From a virus: DNA of 43,302 nt. Under the pieces are notes generated by a model. The model saw nothing but the letters and a program-made list of their open reading frames with translations. It searched no databases and had not been told where the DNA came from. The translations under genes and the position numbers were made by a program. Positions 4 through 24,312 of this stretch are shown here, piece after piece (the first letter of the stretch is position 1; each line of letters starts with the position of its first letter). The stretch spans positions 1 through 43,302 of IMG/VR virus record IMGVR_UViG_3300034072_000812. One strand, 5' to 3'.

Positions 4-26
4 GCCCTGCAATGCGGGGCTTTTTT
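4..26 (+). terminator. Rho-independent terminator
   Basis: GCCCTGC and GCGGGGC pair as a 7-bp stem (one G-U) around an AAT loop, followed by six T. It lies just upstream of the methyltransferase gene. If the window is circular, it ends the transcript of the gene at 42801-43286. Confidence 0.75.
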
Positions 27-27
27 C

Positions 28-966
28 ATGGATGTTATGAATGAGCTTCATCTTTTCGCAGGCGCTGGTGGCGGCATCCTCGCAGGGCAGTTGCTTGGAC
101 ACAGAACAGTCTGCGCCGTCGAGTGGGAGCCTTACGCTCAGGCCGTGCTTGTGGCACGACAAAACGATGGAACCTTCCCGCCTTTCCCGATTTGGGATGA
201 CGTGCAAACCTTTGACGGAAAACCATGGCGCGGAATTGTTGACATCGTGGCTGGAGGGTTTCCGTGCCAAGACATCAGCGCTGCCGGGAGCGGCGCGGGA
301 CTTGACGGAGAACGCAGCGGAATGTGGCATCACATGGCCCGCATCATTGGCGAAGTTCGACCCAGATACGTCCTCGTGGAAAACAGCCCAGCTCTCACTT
401 CTCGGGGGCTTGGAAGAGTTCTCGGAGACTTGGCCGCGCTGGGGTTTGATGCGTGCTGGGGAGTGCTGGGAGCGTCAGACGTTGGTGCCCCGCACAAGCG
501 AGAGCGCATCTGGATTGTGGCAAACGCCCGTCGCAGACGACGCAGCGAACCGGGCGAATGGGAAGTGGAACAGTCGCGGGGAGCCGAAGCTGTCAGCGCA
601 AGTGATGTGGCCGACAGCGACTGTCTGCGGCAACTACAACCGCAAAGGTGCGAGTGCAACCAGTGGGGACGGCCTTGCAACAGCAGTAACGCAGCGCACC
701 TATCCGACAGCGACAGCGCACAAGGGATGGAGCCCGAACCACAACCTGGCGGACACGGACGACCGGCTGGACTACACAGTAGAGCGCGAGGCTTTCAACC
801 CTGGCCAGCAGACCCCGCCGATGCGCCTGAATCCGGCGTGGGTCGAGTGGTTGATGGGGTGGCCCATCGGTCACACCGAATTAAAGCCCTTGGAAACGGG
901 CAAGTGCCAATCTGCGCGGCAGTGGCATGGGCACTTCTTGGAGGCGCTAAGGAGTTTCATAAATGA
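28..966 (+). CDS. Phage DNA (cytosine-5) methyltransferase
   Basis: C5-cytosine DNA methyltransferase, predicted to transfer a methyl group from S-adenosylmethionine to cytosine in DNA. Visible motifs in order: AdoMet motif I FAGAGGG near residue 10, catalytic motif IV GGFPCQDIS with its Cys near residue 80, motif VI ENSPAL near 118, motif VIII KRERIW near 157, and the C-terminal motif X-like IKALGNGQVP near 290. The region between motifs VIII and X, normally the target-recognition part, is low in hydrophobics and rich in Arg, Ser, Asp and Pro, as expected of DNA constrained by a second frame. The start could be 28 or Met4 at 37; family members usually begin about there, and no strong ribosome site decides it. 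It ends in an ATGA overlap with the next gene. In phages such enzymes usually protect DNA from host restriction; no cognate nuclease is visible. Confidence 0.9.
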   Translation: MDVMNELHLFAGAGGGILAGQLLGHRTVCAVEWEPYAQAVLVARQNDGTFPPFPIWDDVQTFDGKPWRGIVDIVAGGFPCQDISAAGSGAGLDGERSGMWHHMARIIGEVRPRYVLVENSPALTSRGLGRVLGDLAALGFDACWGVLGASDVGAPHKRERIWIVANARRRRRSEPGEWEVEQSRGAEAVSASDVADSDCLRQLQPQRCECNQWGRPCNSSNAAHLSDSDSAQGMEPEPQPGGHGRPAGLHSRARGFQPWPADPADAPESGVGRVVDGVAHRSHRIKALGNGQVPICAAVAWALLGGAKEFHK

Positions 967-970
967 GTAA
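41..970 (+). CDS. Overprinted Trp-rich phage protein in the +1 frame of the methyltransferase
   Basis: A 309-codon reading frame lies almost wholly inside the methyltransferase gene, shifted by one base. Its product is rich in tryptophan and carries motifs I recognise from standalone phage proteins of unknown function: FSETWPRWG near residue 128, WPTATVCGNYNRKG near 190, and LNPAWVEWLMGWP near 265 followed by LKPLETGKC. The DNA for this last motif also encodes methyltransferase motifs IX-X. The start codon at 41 follows an in-frame TGA at 38-40 and overlaps the possible methyltransferase ATG at 37. The stop TAA at 968 lies inside the next gene. Nothing in the window shows it is translated. 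The open length and motif match make it more than a shadow, but the function is unknown. Confidence 0.6.
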   Translation: MSFIFSQALVAASSQGSCLDTEQSAPSSGSLTLRPCLWHDKTMEPSRLSRFGMTCKPLTENHGAELLTSWLEGFRAKTSALPGAARDLTENAAECGITWPASLAKFDPDTSSWKTAQLSLLGGLEEFSETWPRWGLMRAGECWERQTLVPRTSESASGLWQTPVADDAANRANGKWNSRGEPKLSAQVMWPTATVCGNYNRKGASATSGDGLATAVTQRTYPTATAHKGWSPNHNLADTDDRLDYTVEREAFNPGQQTPPMRLNPAWVEWLMGWPIGHTELKPLETGKCQSARQWHGHFLEALRSFINE

Positions 971-1722: not shown

Positions 1723-2024
1723 ACGACACCACCAACAACGGCGGGCCTGCGTTTCCGGCCTCTTACTACACGGATGACGGAGAGTGGGCAAAAAGAGATG
1801 GCATGACCCTGCGCCAATACGCCGCCATCAAGCTGCGCGTCCCCAACAGCGGCACCGATTGGCTGGACGCAATGATCGTGGCGGCCAAGCGTGACGAACT
1901 GGCAGCGAAGGCGATGCAGTCCTATCTTTTGGACAAAGACCGGGACAGCTTCACTTTTGAACAATGGGCGAATGCCGCCTACGAAATGGCAGACGCAATG
2001 CTCGAAGCAGGGGGACAAGCATGA
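1719..2024 (+). CDS. Phage hypothetical protein of the GMTLRQYAA type
   Basis: 101 aa. The pattern GGPAFPASYY near the N-terminus, GMTLRQYAAIK near residue 28, and a C-terminal WANAAYEMADAML helix is one I recognise from many small phage proteins of unknown function, usually in early accessory gene clusters. It starts by ATGA overlap with the preceding gene and ends just after the start of the next one. No catalytic or membrane features are seen. Confidence 0.75.
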   Translation: MNDTTNNGGPAFPASYYTDDGEWAKRDGMTLRQYAAIKLRVPNSGTDWLDAMIVAAKRDELAAKAMQSYLLDKDRDSFTFEQWANAAYEMADAMLEAGGQA

Positions 2025-2308
2025 CCCGCGCCCCCTCATACCTAGACGACAACACCCGCACCTTCGCCCGCACCTGCCCCGGCTTCGGGAAGACGCAGGC
2101 ACAGCAGGCCGTGGCAATCGAGGTGTACCGCACACCGCTGTGGAAGCGCGCCGTGTGGGCCTTCTGCCGTCATGGCTGGCTGCTCATTCCCGCAGTGCTG
2201 GCTGTGCTGGTTTTCAGCGGCTGCACAAGCGATGTGGACACGTATGCAGCGGTGCAGGCTGATCTGGCTGATGCGATTCACCAGGCTGCGAAGGAGGCGG
2301 GGAAATGA
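2021..2308 (+). CDS. Small membrane protein with lipobox-like motif
   Basis: 95 aa. A charged N-terminal half is followed by one hydrophobic segment (about residues 52-66, LLIPAVLAVLVFSGC) and a short helical tail. VFSGC resembles a lipoprotein box, but the hydrophobic segment lies far from the N-terminus for a signal peptide, so a single-pass membrane protein is the safer call. The start at 2021 follows GGGGACA, and the gene overlaps both neighbours by four bases. An alternative is a lysis accessory, but the true lysis genes lie at 11.7-12.9 kb. Confidence 0.6.
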   Translation: MTRAPSYLDDNTRTFARTCPGFGKTQAQQAVAIEVYRTPLWKRAVWAFCRHGWLLIPAVLAVLVFSGCTSDVDTYAAVQADLADAIHQAAKEAGK

Positions 2309-2724
2309 CCAACTATCGCAAAACCGAGGATTGGAAGCGCGAAGGAAAAGGCTTTCTAGTAGTCGTGAACCACTACACCTCGCCAATGCGCGAAGAGCCC
2401 GCGTGCTACGACAGCGAGGGGCCGCACCGTTGGTGTGTGTACGCCTACATCTACCCGAGCCACCCGCACTTTGTCGCGTTTGATGGCACGGAAACGATGT
2501 GGCAACCAGCCGCCTCCATGATGCCGCTGCACGGTGGGCCAAGCCTGCTGCGCGTGCACACAAAGCACCCAGACCACGCTGTTACGAGCTATCAAGTGGG
2601 CGCGGATTACCACCACCTGCACGACACCGCCTACACGCGGATGGCGAATGAGCAGGAGGCTTTCAGCGTCTTTGCTGATGCTGACGAATTGTTCGACTGG
2701 CTTAGTGAAAGGCCATTGGTATGA
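2305..2724 (+). CDS. Hypothetical phage protein (139 aa)
   Basis: 139 aa, rich in His, Tyr and Trp, with no transmembrane segment. It has a mixed beta-like body (RWCVYAYIYPSHPHF near residue 42) and a C-terminal acidic helix ending ADELFDWLSERPLV. It starts and ends in ATGA overlaps, so it belongs to the coupled cluster 1719-2822. I do not recognise a named family. Confidence 0.65.
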   Translation: MTNYRKTEDWKREGKGFLVVVNHYTSPMREEPACYDSEGPHRWCVYAYIYPSHPHFVAFDGTETMWQPAASMMPLHGGPSLLRVHTKHPDHAVTSYQVGADYHHLHDTAYTRMANEQEAFSVFADADELFDWLSERPLV

Positions 2725-2822
2725 ACCGCCTAAAAGAGTTCGCCGCCCTGTACCACATCTATCGCCAGTGCCACAAGCCCATCGCAGCCGCTCGGTATGC
2801 GTGGATTGTGTCGGGCGGGTGA
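2721..2822 (+). CDS. Very small phage protein (33 aa)
   Basis: 33 codons beginning MNRLKEFAALYHIYRQCHK and ending YAWIVSGG. Basic amphipathic proteins of this size and pattern (RLxEFxALYxxYR then ARxAW) recur in phage early clusters. Its ATG overlaps the preceding TGA. Function unknown. Confidence 0.6.
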   Translation: MNRLKEFAALYHIYRQCHKPIAAARYAWIVSGG

Positions 2823-2848
2823 TTCAACAAACATGAATTGAGGATGAC

Positions 2849-3415
2849 ATGAACGCAACCACGAAAGCCGAGGCCGATGTGCTGGAGGTGTGGCTCCCAA
2901 TATCGGGCTACGCAGGGCTGTATTCGGTGAGCAACTTAGGCCGAATCCGCAGTGAGCCGAAAAATGTGATCCGATGTAACGGGGTTGTATGCCCCATGCC
3001 GCAAAAGATCCGACGACCTGCATTAGGAGCTAACGGATACCTGAGCCTGGGGCTTGTGAATGCCAGCGGAGTGCGGCGCACGCACTACGTCCACACATTG
3101 GTTCTAGAGCACTTTGATTCACCCCGTCCAGATGGCATGGATGCGTGTCATTGCGACGGCAACAAGATGCACAACGCAATAGCCAACCTGCGCTGGGACA
3201 CAAGGTCTGGAAATCACGCCGACAAGATGCAGCACGGGACAGCGACCATAGGGGAGAACCACCCAATGCGCAAGCTAACCAATGAAAAGGTCTTGGCGAT
3301 GCGAAATAGGCGGGCGGAAGGTGCATCAGTGACACAGCTTGCAAAAGAGTTTGACGTATCGCGCATGACTGCGCACAGGGCCGCAACTGGCCGCAGCTGG
3401 AGCCATATCACATGA
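2849..3415 (+). CDS. NUMOD4-HNH homing endonuclease
   Basis: 188 aa. Residues 12-35 (EVWLPISGYAGLYSVSNLG) are a clear NUMOD4 module. Residues 80-125 form an HNH_3-type nuclease: HTLVLEHF, CHCDGNKMHN, NLRWDTRSGNHADK. The C-terminus (about 140-185) is a helix-turn-helix of the type VTQLAKEFDVSRMTAHRAATG, probably for DNA site recognition. Such proteins are free-standing homing endonucleases that spread by cutting alleles lacking them. GAGGATG precedes the start, and the end overlaps recT by ATGA. It probably entered upstream of the recombination module. Confidence 0.9.
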   Translation: MNATTKAEADVLEVWLPISGYAGLYSVSNLGRIRSEPKNVIRCNGVVCPMPQKIRRPALGANGYLSLGLVNASGVRRTHYVHTLVLEHFDSPRPDGMDACHCDGNKMHNAIANLRWDTRSGNHADKMQHGTATIGENHPMRKLTNEKVLAMRNRRAEGASVTQLAKEFDVSRMTAHRAATGRSWSHIT

Positions 3416-4332
3416 ACGCCATCACAACCATTGAGCAGTTCGTTTACGGGGCTGAGTCCAGCTTCCAAAGCGTGCTGGTTGACCGCTCCATCAACTTCGA
3501 GCGCGAAGCCGGTTTCGCCATTCAGATACTGACCTCGGGCGACTACATCGCCAAGCTGGCAGCTGGCGACCGGCAATCTGTCGTCAATGCCGTGACCAAC
3601 ATCGCGGCCATCGGCATCAGTCTGAACCCGGCAAAAAAGCAGGCCTACCTGGTGCCGCGCAAGGGCAAGATTTGCCTGGACATCAGCTACATGGGCTTGA
3701 TTGACTTGGCGATTGATTCCGGTTCGATCATGTGGGCGCAGGCCGCGCTGGTGCATGCCAACGACGCCTTCACGCTCAACGGCTTTGACAAGCCACCAAC
3801 GCACTCATTCAACCCGTTCTCCAAGGAGCGCGGCGAAATGGTGGGCGCCTACGTTGTGGTGAAGATGCACAGCGGCGACTACCTCACCGAGTGCATGAGC
3901 CGCGAGGAAATCGACGCAATCAAAAACCGCTCCGAATCGGTGAAGGCCGGGAAGACCTCGCCATGGGACACCGACTATGGCGAAATGGCGAAGAAGACGG
4001 TGGTCAAGCGGGCCTACAAATACTGGCCCAAATCCGACCGCCTCGATCAAGCCATCCACCACCTGAACACCGATGGCGGCGAAGGGCTGGCAACGCTGAC
4101 AAAGCCTGCAGCGGTTGACCCCACGCCCATCATCGAAGGCGCCCGCGCAACGAAGACGGTGGACGAACTCAACGCCTACTGGGCAGAGCACAACGGCAAG
4201 CTGGCAAACGACCTGGCAGCGCACGATGCGCTCAAGAAGGCATGCCAAGCGCACAAGAAACGGCTGGCCGCAGAAGCCGCAAAGAACGAAGCAACTGATG
4301 TGGAGGTGAAAGATGCCGTGGCTACAGCTTGA
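3412..4332 (+). CDS. recT: RecT-family single-strand annealing protein
   Basis: 306 aa. RecT-type recombinase that anneals complementary single strands produced by the partner exonuclease. Typical sequence includes IGISLNPAKKQAYLVPR near residue 66, ISYMGLIDLA near 92, GAYVVVKMHSGD near 145, and TDYGEMAKKTVVKRAYKYWP near 190. The C-terminal 70 residues are charged and Ala/Lys-rich, as usual. It is followed at a 20-bp overlap by a YqaJ exonuclease gene and then SSB, a standard phage double-strand-break recombination set. Confidence 0.93.
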   Translation: MNAITTIEQFVYGAESSFQSVLVDRSINFEREAGFAIQILTSGDYIAKLAAGDRQSVVNAVTNIAAIGISLNPAKKQAYLVPRKGKICLDISYMGLIDLAIDSGSIMWAQAALVHANDAFTLNGFDKPPTHSFNPFSKERGEMVGAYVVVKMHSGDYLTECMSREEIDAIKNRSESVKAGKTSPWDTDYGEMAKKTVVKRAYKYWPKSDRLDQAIHHLNTDGGEGLATLTKPAAVDPTPIIEGARATKTVDELNAYWAEHNGKLANDLAAHDALKKACQAHKKRLAAEAAKNEATDVEVKDAVATA

Positions 4333-24277: not shown

Positions 24278-24312
24278 GAAAAAAGCCCCGCCCGGTTTCC
24301 CGAGAGGGGCTT
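24278..24312 (-). terminator. Hairpin with T run downstream of the tail completion gene
   Basis: Minus strand: AAGCCCC and GGGGCTT enclose a 16-nt loop that can itself pair (TCGGG/CCCGG part), followed by TTTTTTC. Tandem with the hairpin at 24231. Confidence 0.6.

Follow-up and report, generated by a model that had tools for sequence, protein, structure and literature searches.

We asked whether two long reading frames lying on the same strand of a 43.3 kb virus record are both genes and, if so, what the second of them encodes. The window is the whole stretch of DNA analysed, 43,302 nucleotides. An earlier first-pass annotation had reported two same-strand frames of about 310 codons each staying open, and direct reading of the sequence bears this out. 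Frame 1 (alpha) occupies positions 28-966 of the plus strand (312 amino acids, or 309 from the conserved ATG at 37) and frame 2 (beta) occupies positions 41-970 of the same strand, stop-free over 309 amino acids, while the third frame carries 14 stops across the same span. The mutual overlap of alpha and beta is long, at about 926 nt, with an offset of 4 nt between the starts (ATGaATG) and of 4 nt between the stops. The eight bases at 963-970 serve all three frames, as start of the next gene, alpha stop and beta stop. The evidence given below makes it very probable that positions 37-970 encode a C5-cytosine DNA methyltransferase made of two subunits, with the genes of the two nested in different frames (Table 1).

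Table 1. Features of the nested frames in the window, and beta frames annotated in three public phage records.
Feature	Record	Position	Strand	Evidence or remark
Alpha, putative catalytic subunit of a C5-cytosine methyltransferase (motifs I-VIII, then a hydrophilic linker and motif X)	Window	37..966	+	PF00145 1e-31; phrog_363 1e-67; TIGR00675 1e-24; alternative ATG upstream at 28
Alpha against PDB	Window	4-170 (match positions)		M.HhaI 2e-25
Beta, putative recognition/motif IX subunit, +1 frame, 309 aa	Window	41..970	+	phrog_1008 2e-30
Double start ATGaATG	Window	37..43	+	Alpha ATG 37-39; beta ATG 41-43
TGA closing the beta frame on the upstream side	Window	38-40	+
Alpha motif IV GGFPCQDIS, including the catalytic Cys	Window	253..279	+	Alignment columns invariant
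Beta segment FDPDTSSWKT...TWPRWGLMRAGECWE, conserved and lying opposite alpha motifs VI-VIII	Window	356..472	+	Alignments; omega_beta 0.28-0.31 in the region
Alpha motif VIII region GAPHKRERIW	Window	484..513	+	Alignment of alpha relatives
Beta recognition-like region, WPTP-type modules	Window	509..826	+	Alpha here an unconserved hydrophilic linker; omega_beta 0.09-0.24 against omega_alpha 0.24-0.65; equivalent region in frame after motif VIII in single-chain enzymes
Beta motif IX RLNPAWVEWLMGWPIGHT	Window	824..877	+	Near-invariant columns; hhalign to single-chain motif IX, probability 93.5, E 2.2e-7
Alpha pre-X and motif X GRVVDGVAHRSHRIKALGNGQVP	Window	838..909	+	Alignment; DNA partly common with beta motif IX
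ATGAGTAA: next gene start (963), alpha stop TGA (964-966), beta stop TAA (968-970)	Window	963..970	+	Direct reading
Annotated CDS is the beta frame, given as the methyltransferase	Acidovorax phage Alfacinha3 (L239)	512-1678
Annotated CDS is the beta frame	Synechococcus phage Ssp-JY39 (L240)	506-1621
Annotated CDS is the beta frame	Pseudomonas phage phPA-G (L246)	839-1567

Both proteins were compared by tblastn with 94 IMG/VR loci, L002-L081 collected via beta and L082-L095 via alpha alone, and in nearly all of them both frames are open while the third frame has 8-26 stops. Beta was present in 14 of the 14 viral loci chosen by alpha and was equally open there, except for three loci with one stop at the extreme end of the span. 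As a null, the synonymous codons of alpha were shuffled with the alpha protein and codon usage preserved. Against a mean expectation of 4.9, beta stops were absent from 87 of 89 relatives, and in the window alone 0 were seen against 2.9 expected (P=0.008); stops in frame 2 in most close homologues, which had been named earlier, together with neutral substitutions there, as the mark of a chance open frame, were not what the relatives displayed. Neighbouring ORFs of the same loci had 10.8 stops per 300 codons in their +1 frame and alpha had 0.11. Single-chain C5-methyltransferase genes, used as the negative control, carried +1 stops near the expected number in nearly all cases, even at about 70% G+C. 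Genomes of two phylum samples were also screened with alpha as the sole criterion, and 31 of the 32 loci so obtained had a beta-profile match in the +1 frame.

Two alpha relatives were without a convincing beta. In L305 (G624, 43% G+C) the profile match was weak and the +1 frame was largely closed, with 16 stops; in L308 (G615) the +1 frame was open and gave no beta-profile match.

Codon usage at conserved positions indicated constraint on synonymous sites, with identical codons at same-amino-acid columns in 61% of cases for alpha pairs (null 39%) and in 46% for control pairs (null 41%). Frame identity was above shuffle in both alternative frames, the third-frame control included, because synonymous sites are conserved. 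Since the third frame was also raised, neighbour-gene controls and site-class rates were used instead.

For the site classes, isolated differences between close relatives were sorted by their effect in each frame in 36 sequence-disjoint pairs; the omega ranges represent the two available estimators, and the bootstrap intervals are wide for some of the middle-region values. Over motifs I-VIII omega_alpha was 0.05-0.06 and omega_beta 0.28-0.31, in the middle region the values were those listed for positions 509..826 in Table 1, and at the IX/X end omega_alpha was 0.11-0.24 and omega_beta 0.11-0.25. Rates from a larger set of 126 non-independent pairs agreed with these. A selection test of the kind proposed in the first-pass annotation gave an omega_beta of 0.09-0.31 over the full length, against 0.87-1.49, near neutral, for the +1 frame in 45 control pairs of neighbouring genes. 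Changes silent in alpha that create a beta stop were seen once over motifs I-VIII, where the rate of the remaining alpha-silent changes predicts about 125. The site-class rates therefore indicate that alpha and beta are constrained from end to end, alpha more strongly in the catalytic part and beta more strongly in the middle. Both frames are genes under purifying selection over their full length.

These data bear on the possibility that frame 2 owes its openness to chance in DNA rich in G+C, or to a constraint at the DNA or RNA level. The window has 61% G+C, a single gene of such composition would be stop-free in +1 with P about 0.01, and the raised identity of the third frame would suit a DNA- or RNA-level constraint. 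However, relatives at 47-55% G+C are equally open, single-chain C5-methyltransferases at about 70% G+C are not open in +1, frame-2 substitutions are strongly non-neutral with stops that almost never fix, and the beta start codon is fixed, so that the probability left to this explanation is close to nil.

The evidence for the start is as follows. In most relatives the beta ATG lies 4 nt after the alpha start, the RTGaATG arrangement being conserved. The second alpha codon, from which the beta ATG derives, is AAT in 135 relatives and AAC in 1, while elsewhere in these genes AAC is the commoner asparagine codon (813 against 485 AAT). Beta has its own fixed start codon. A Shine-Dalgarno sequence of at least 4 bases was found in 103 of 140 relatives and in 24 of 132 control 20-mers taken farther upstream; it ends mostly 4-5 nt before the alpha start and therefore 8-9 nt before that of beta. 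The Shine-Dalgarno of the window itself is weak. Terminator-like hairpins with similar GCGGGGCTTTTT occur in the window at 3-25, 1395-1417 and 24280-24291 (minus), and hairpins of this type gave 5 matches at up to one mismatch against 0.44 expected; one of them (3-25) lies just upstream of the alpha start.

Analysis of the alpha protein revealed motifs I, IV, VI and VIII in one chain, as in a single-chain C5-methyltransferase. The PF00145 match ends at residue 172, after motif VIII, phrog_363 also matches, and the alignment of relatives contains no conserved columns in alpha between motif VIII and the motif X region. The recognition domain and motif IX of a single-chain enzyme are not in the alpha chain and are located in the beta frame, and the motif IX signature (RLNPAWVEWLMGWP) is read in frame 2 and not in frame 1. 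Frame 1 had earlier been credited with all motifs of a C5-methyltransferase; this does not hold for motif IX.

The most conserved block of beta, LNPxWVEWLMGWPxGWT, resembles motif IX of C5-methyltransferases. In single-chain enzymes (L107, L201 and others) one frame continues from motifs I-VIII into a region of WPTP type, then into a motif IX (for example RLNPAFAEWMMGLP) and GNGVVP, and the modelled structure of one such protein matched M.HhaI. The beta profile aligned with the single-chain enzymes on motif IX and directly matched their C-terminal halves. Intermediate sequences connect the two: window beta matched L103 beta at 1e-10, and L103 beta in turn matched L201 (1e-44) and L107 (1e-40) across the part that spans recognition, IX and X; there was also a match at 3e-43 between window beta and L156 beta, and L156 beta runs on into motif X in the same frame. 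As judged from these alignments, the second half of beta shares ancestry with the part of single-chain C5 enzymes that holds the recognition domain and motif IX, and is therefore a displaced old domain rather than a new protein. By homology and position, the WPTP region of beta is the probable DNA-recognition part. The conserved beta segment at 356..472 had no counterpart in the single-chain enzymes, and only the N-terminal half of beta, together with the linker and motif X tail of alpha, looks overprint-born.

Beta matched PHROG 1008 over profile positions 33-281 of 329, as did 57 of 58 relatives. A Pfam search with 58 betas returned no match, and the beta profile retrieved nothing credible from PDB sequences. 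AlphaFold2 modelled beta alone with low confidence (pLDDT 59.5), a poor model that fits a partner-dependent subunit and proves nothing. In frame 2 the first-pass annotation had seen a separate phage family possibly born by overprinting, and had proposed a search for standalone members. Among 266 beta-profile matches there was no standalone beta and no locus with beta lacking a nearby alpha: alpha overlaps in the +1 frame at 252, and the remaining 14 comprise enzymes read in a single frame, alleles that are split or frameshifted, and fragments adjoining an alpha. Together with the homology of the C-terminal half to single-chain enzymes, this leaves the idea of a separate family unsupported.

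The same observations weigh on the idea that beta, although real, is an unrelated protein, such as a regulator or an anti-restriction factor, overprinted on the methyltransferase by chance. No relatives of its N-terminal half are known beyond this arrangement and the Pfam result is blank, both of which speak for such a protein. However, the recognition/IX half of single-chain enzymes, exactly what alpha is missing, has its homologue in the C-terminal half of beta, and beta was never found without alpha; we regard an unrelated beta as very improbable.

Comparison of the loci revealed more than one architecture. In 156 loci motif X is in alpha and motif IX in beta, as in the window, and in five (L100, L103, L156, L159 and L190) alpha ends after motif VIII and beta carries both IX and X. 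L109 is a mosaic (1948-3696, 2324-3538), with recognition-like LPTP repeats in the beta frame and IX and X in the alpha frame. L007, L094, L067, L188 and Mycobacterium phage Llama (L245 759-1518) carry alleles whose alpha and beta halves have been split, or have traded places, through a frameshift arising from natural mutation or sequencing error. Klebsiella phage BUCT711 (L102 1497-2193) and Salmonella phage S9-5 (L098 1497-2241) have the 5' part in common, after which both frames diverge, as though a swap of the 3' module had replaced the two of them at once.

The five-locus architecture, that of the Samy type, would suit a programmed frameshift, in which the ribosome shifts after motif VIII to make one fused chain (alpha I-VIII with beta recognition and IX) and beta is no separate product. 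In the window type, however, motif X in alpha and motif IX in beta are read from the same DNA, and a complete enzyme is therefore impossible by any single shift. Moreover, the beta ATG is fixed (135 to 1) and beta is constrained over motifs I-VIII, upstream of any possible shift site, which leaves a frameshift fusion very improbable.

We infer for the two-subunit enzyme that both frames are translated, that the products physically assemble, that they methylate DNA and that this has an anti-restriction role. From one mRNA, ribosomes would initiate at either of the two starts 4 nt apart, a single Shine-Dalgarno serving both in most relatives. Alpha, from the ATG at 37, would bind SAM and carry out catalysis through motifs I-VIII and would also contribute motif X, and beta, from the ATG at 41, would contribute the recognition domain and motif IX. 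The two would assemble into one enzyme methylating a specific site in the phage DNA, most likely for evasion of host restriction. Points that weigh against this reading are the two alpha relatives L305 and L308, the weak Shine-Dalgarno of the window and the terminator-like hairpin at 3-25.

Beta relatives were found in genomes and MAGs of Pseudomonadota, Verrucomicrobiota, Planctomycetota, Spirochaetota, Chloroflexota and Geothrix (Acidobacteriota), on a Leptospira plasmid, and in phages of a Gram-positive lactobacillus, of cyanobacteria and of actinobacteria. In a set of 399 Pseudomonadota genomes that includes G001, known beforehand as a carrier, 23 had a beta match. Nested pairs of this kind are present in hundreds of phages and bacteria from many phyla, usually with one gene of the two annotated. 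None of the 16 public records examined has both full frames annotated, most having alpha only, which upholds an earlier suggestion that annotators often pick one of two real genes. In 3 of the 16 (Alfacinha3, Ssp-JY39 and phPA-G) the beta frame is annotated and the catalytic alpha is left out, one of these CDSs being named cytosine-specific methyltransferase; the Samy record has alpha and the end of beta. In Streptomyces phage phiBT1 (NC_004664.2) gp9.1 (L244 903-1403) is annotated as a methylase, possibly inactive, and the unannotated +1 frame (L244 1021-1950) contains a recognition-like region and motifs IX and X.

The phylogenetic tree of the catalytic part, which is weakly resolved and midpoint-rooted, placed the single-chain forms inside one mostly actinophage clade. 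This suggests, without proving it, that the nested form is older than the single-chain form in this sample. The events would most simply be read as a split enzyme whose halves overprinted each other, in an order that so weak a tree leaves uncertain. A fuller account, to which we give an even chance, is that of a phylum-spanning class of nested C5-methyltransferases with mutually overprinted halves, in which the catalytic frame dominates in the 5' part and the recognition frame in the middle, and one stretch encodes motif IX in one frame and the motif X region in the other. In such an account the N-terminal half of beta would be overprint-born, the class would be old, and the sampled single-chain actinophage enzymes would be later frame-restored fusions.

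The present results amend how a large group of methyltransferases from phages and bacteria is annotated, and an inactive enzyme would be expected where alpha is cloned alone. They also provide a natural system for the study of overprinting, with enzyme halves in a measurable, position-dependent conflict and single-frame relatives as controls.

A search of the open-licence literature found no description of the nested arrangement in phages. PHROG 1008, which beta matches, is labelled DNA methyltransferase, a label silent on the second frame; members of PHROGs 1008, 26627 and 27243 are probably beta frames or parts of them. An HNH endonuclease of the ShiLan type is hidden in the second frame of actinophage methylase genes (PMC11855218). 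The likeness lies in a second frame concealed within a phage DNA methylase gene; the ShiLan type, however, is a mobile insertion encoding a homing endonuclease, whereas the second frame described here would supply the missing half of the methyltransferase itself.

The genes of AquI are reportedly adjacent and not nested. M.AquI (CYCGRG) is a C5-methyltransferase split after motif VIII into two chains (PMC3404938), a split common to the Samy-type loci (L100, L103), where IX and X are both on the second chain. Its motif X is on the small subunit, whereas that of the window is on alpha.

The closest likeness, in motif layout as described, is with M.EcoHK31I, and among the E. coli and plasmid relatives none was identifiable as EcoHK31I or EaeI. 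The small subunit of that enzyme is said to be read in an alternative frame inside the large-subunit gene. M.EcoHK31I (YGGCCR) is a two-polypeptide C5-methyltransferase whose large subunit holds motifs I-VIII and X and whose smaller polypeptide holds IX (PMC3404938), and alpha likewise has I-VIII and X, with IX on beta as the second polypeptide. The predicted recognition domain of M.EcoHK31I was placed on its large subunit (PMC3404938), whereas here none is visible in alpha and the homologous region is in beta; furthermore, each of the present frames spans nearly the whole of the other, with 4 nt between the two starts and 4 nt between the two stops. The data fit one two-chain enzyme with catalysis on alpha and recognition and motif IX on beta, and the best reading of the pair is that of a putative heterodimeric methyltransferase of the M.EcoHK31I kind, its subunits nested over almost their entire length.
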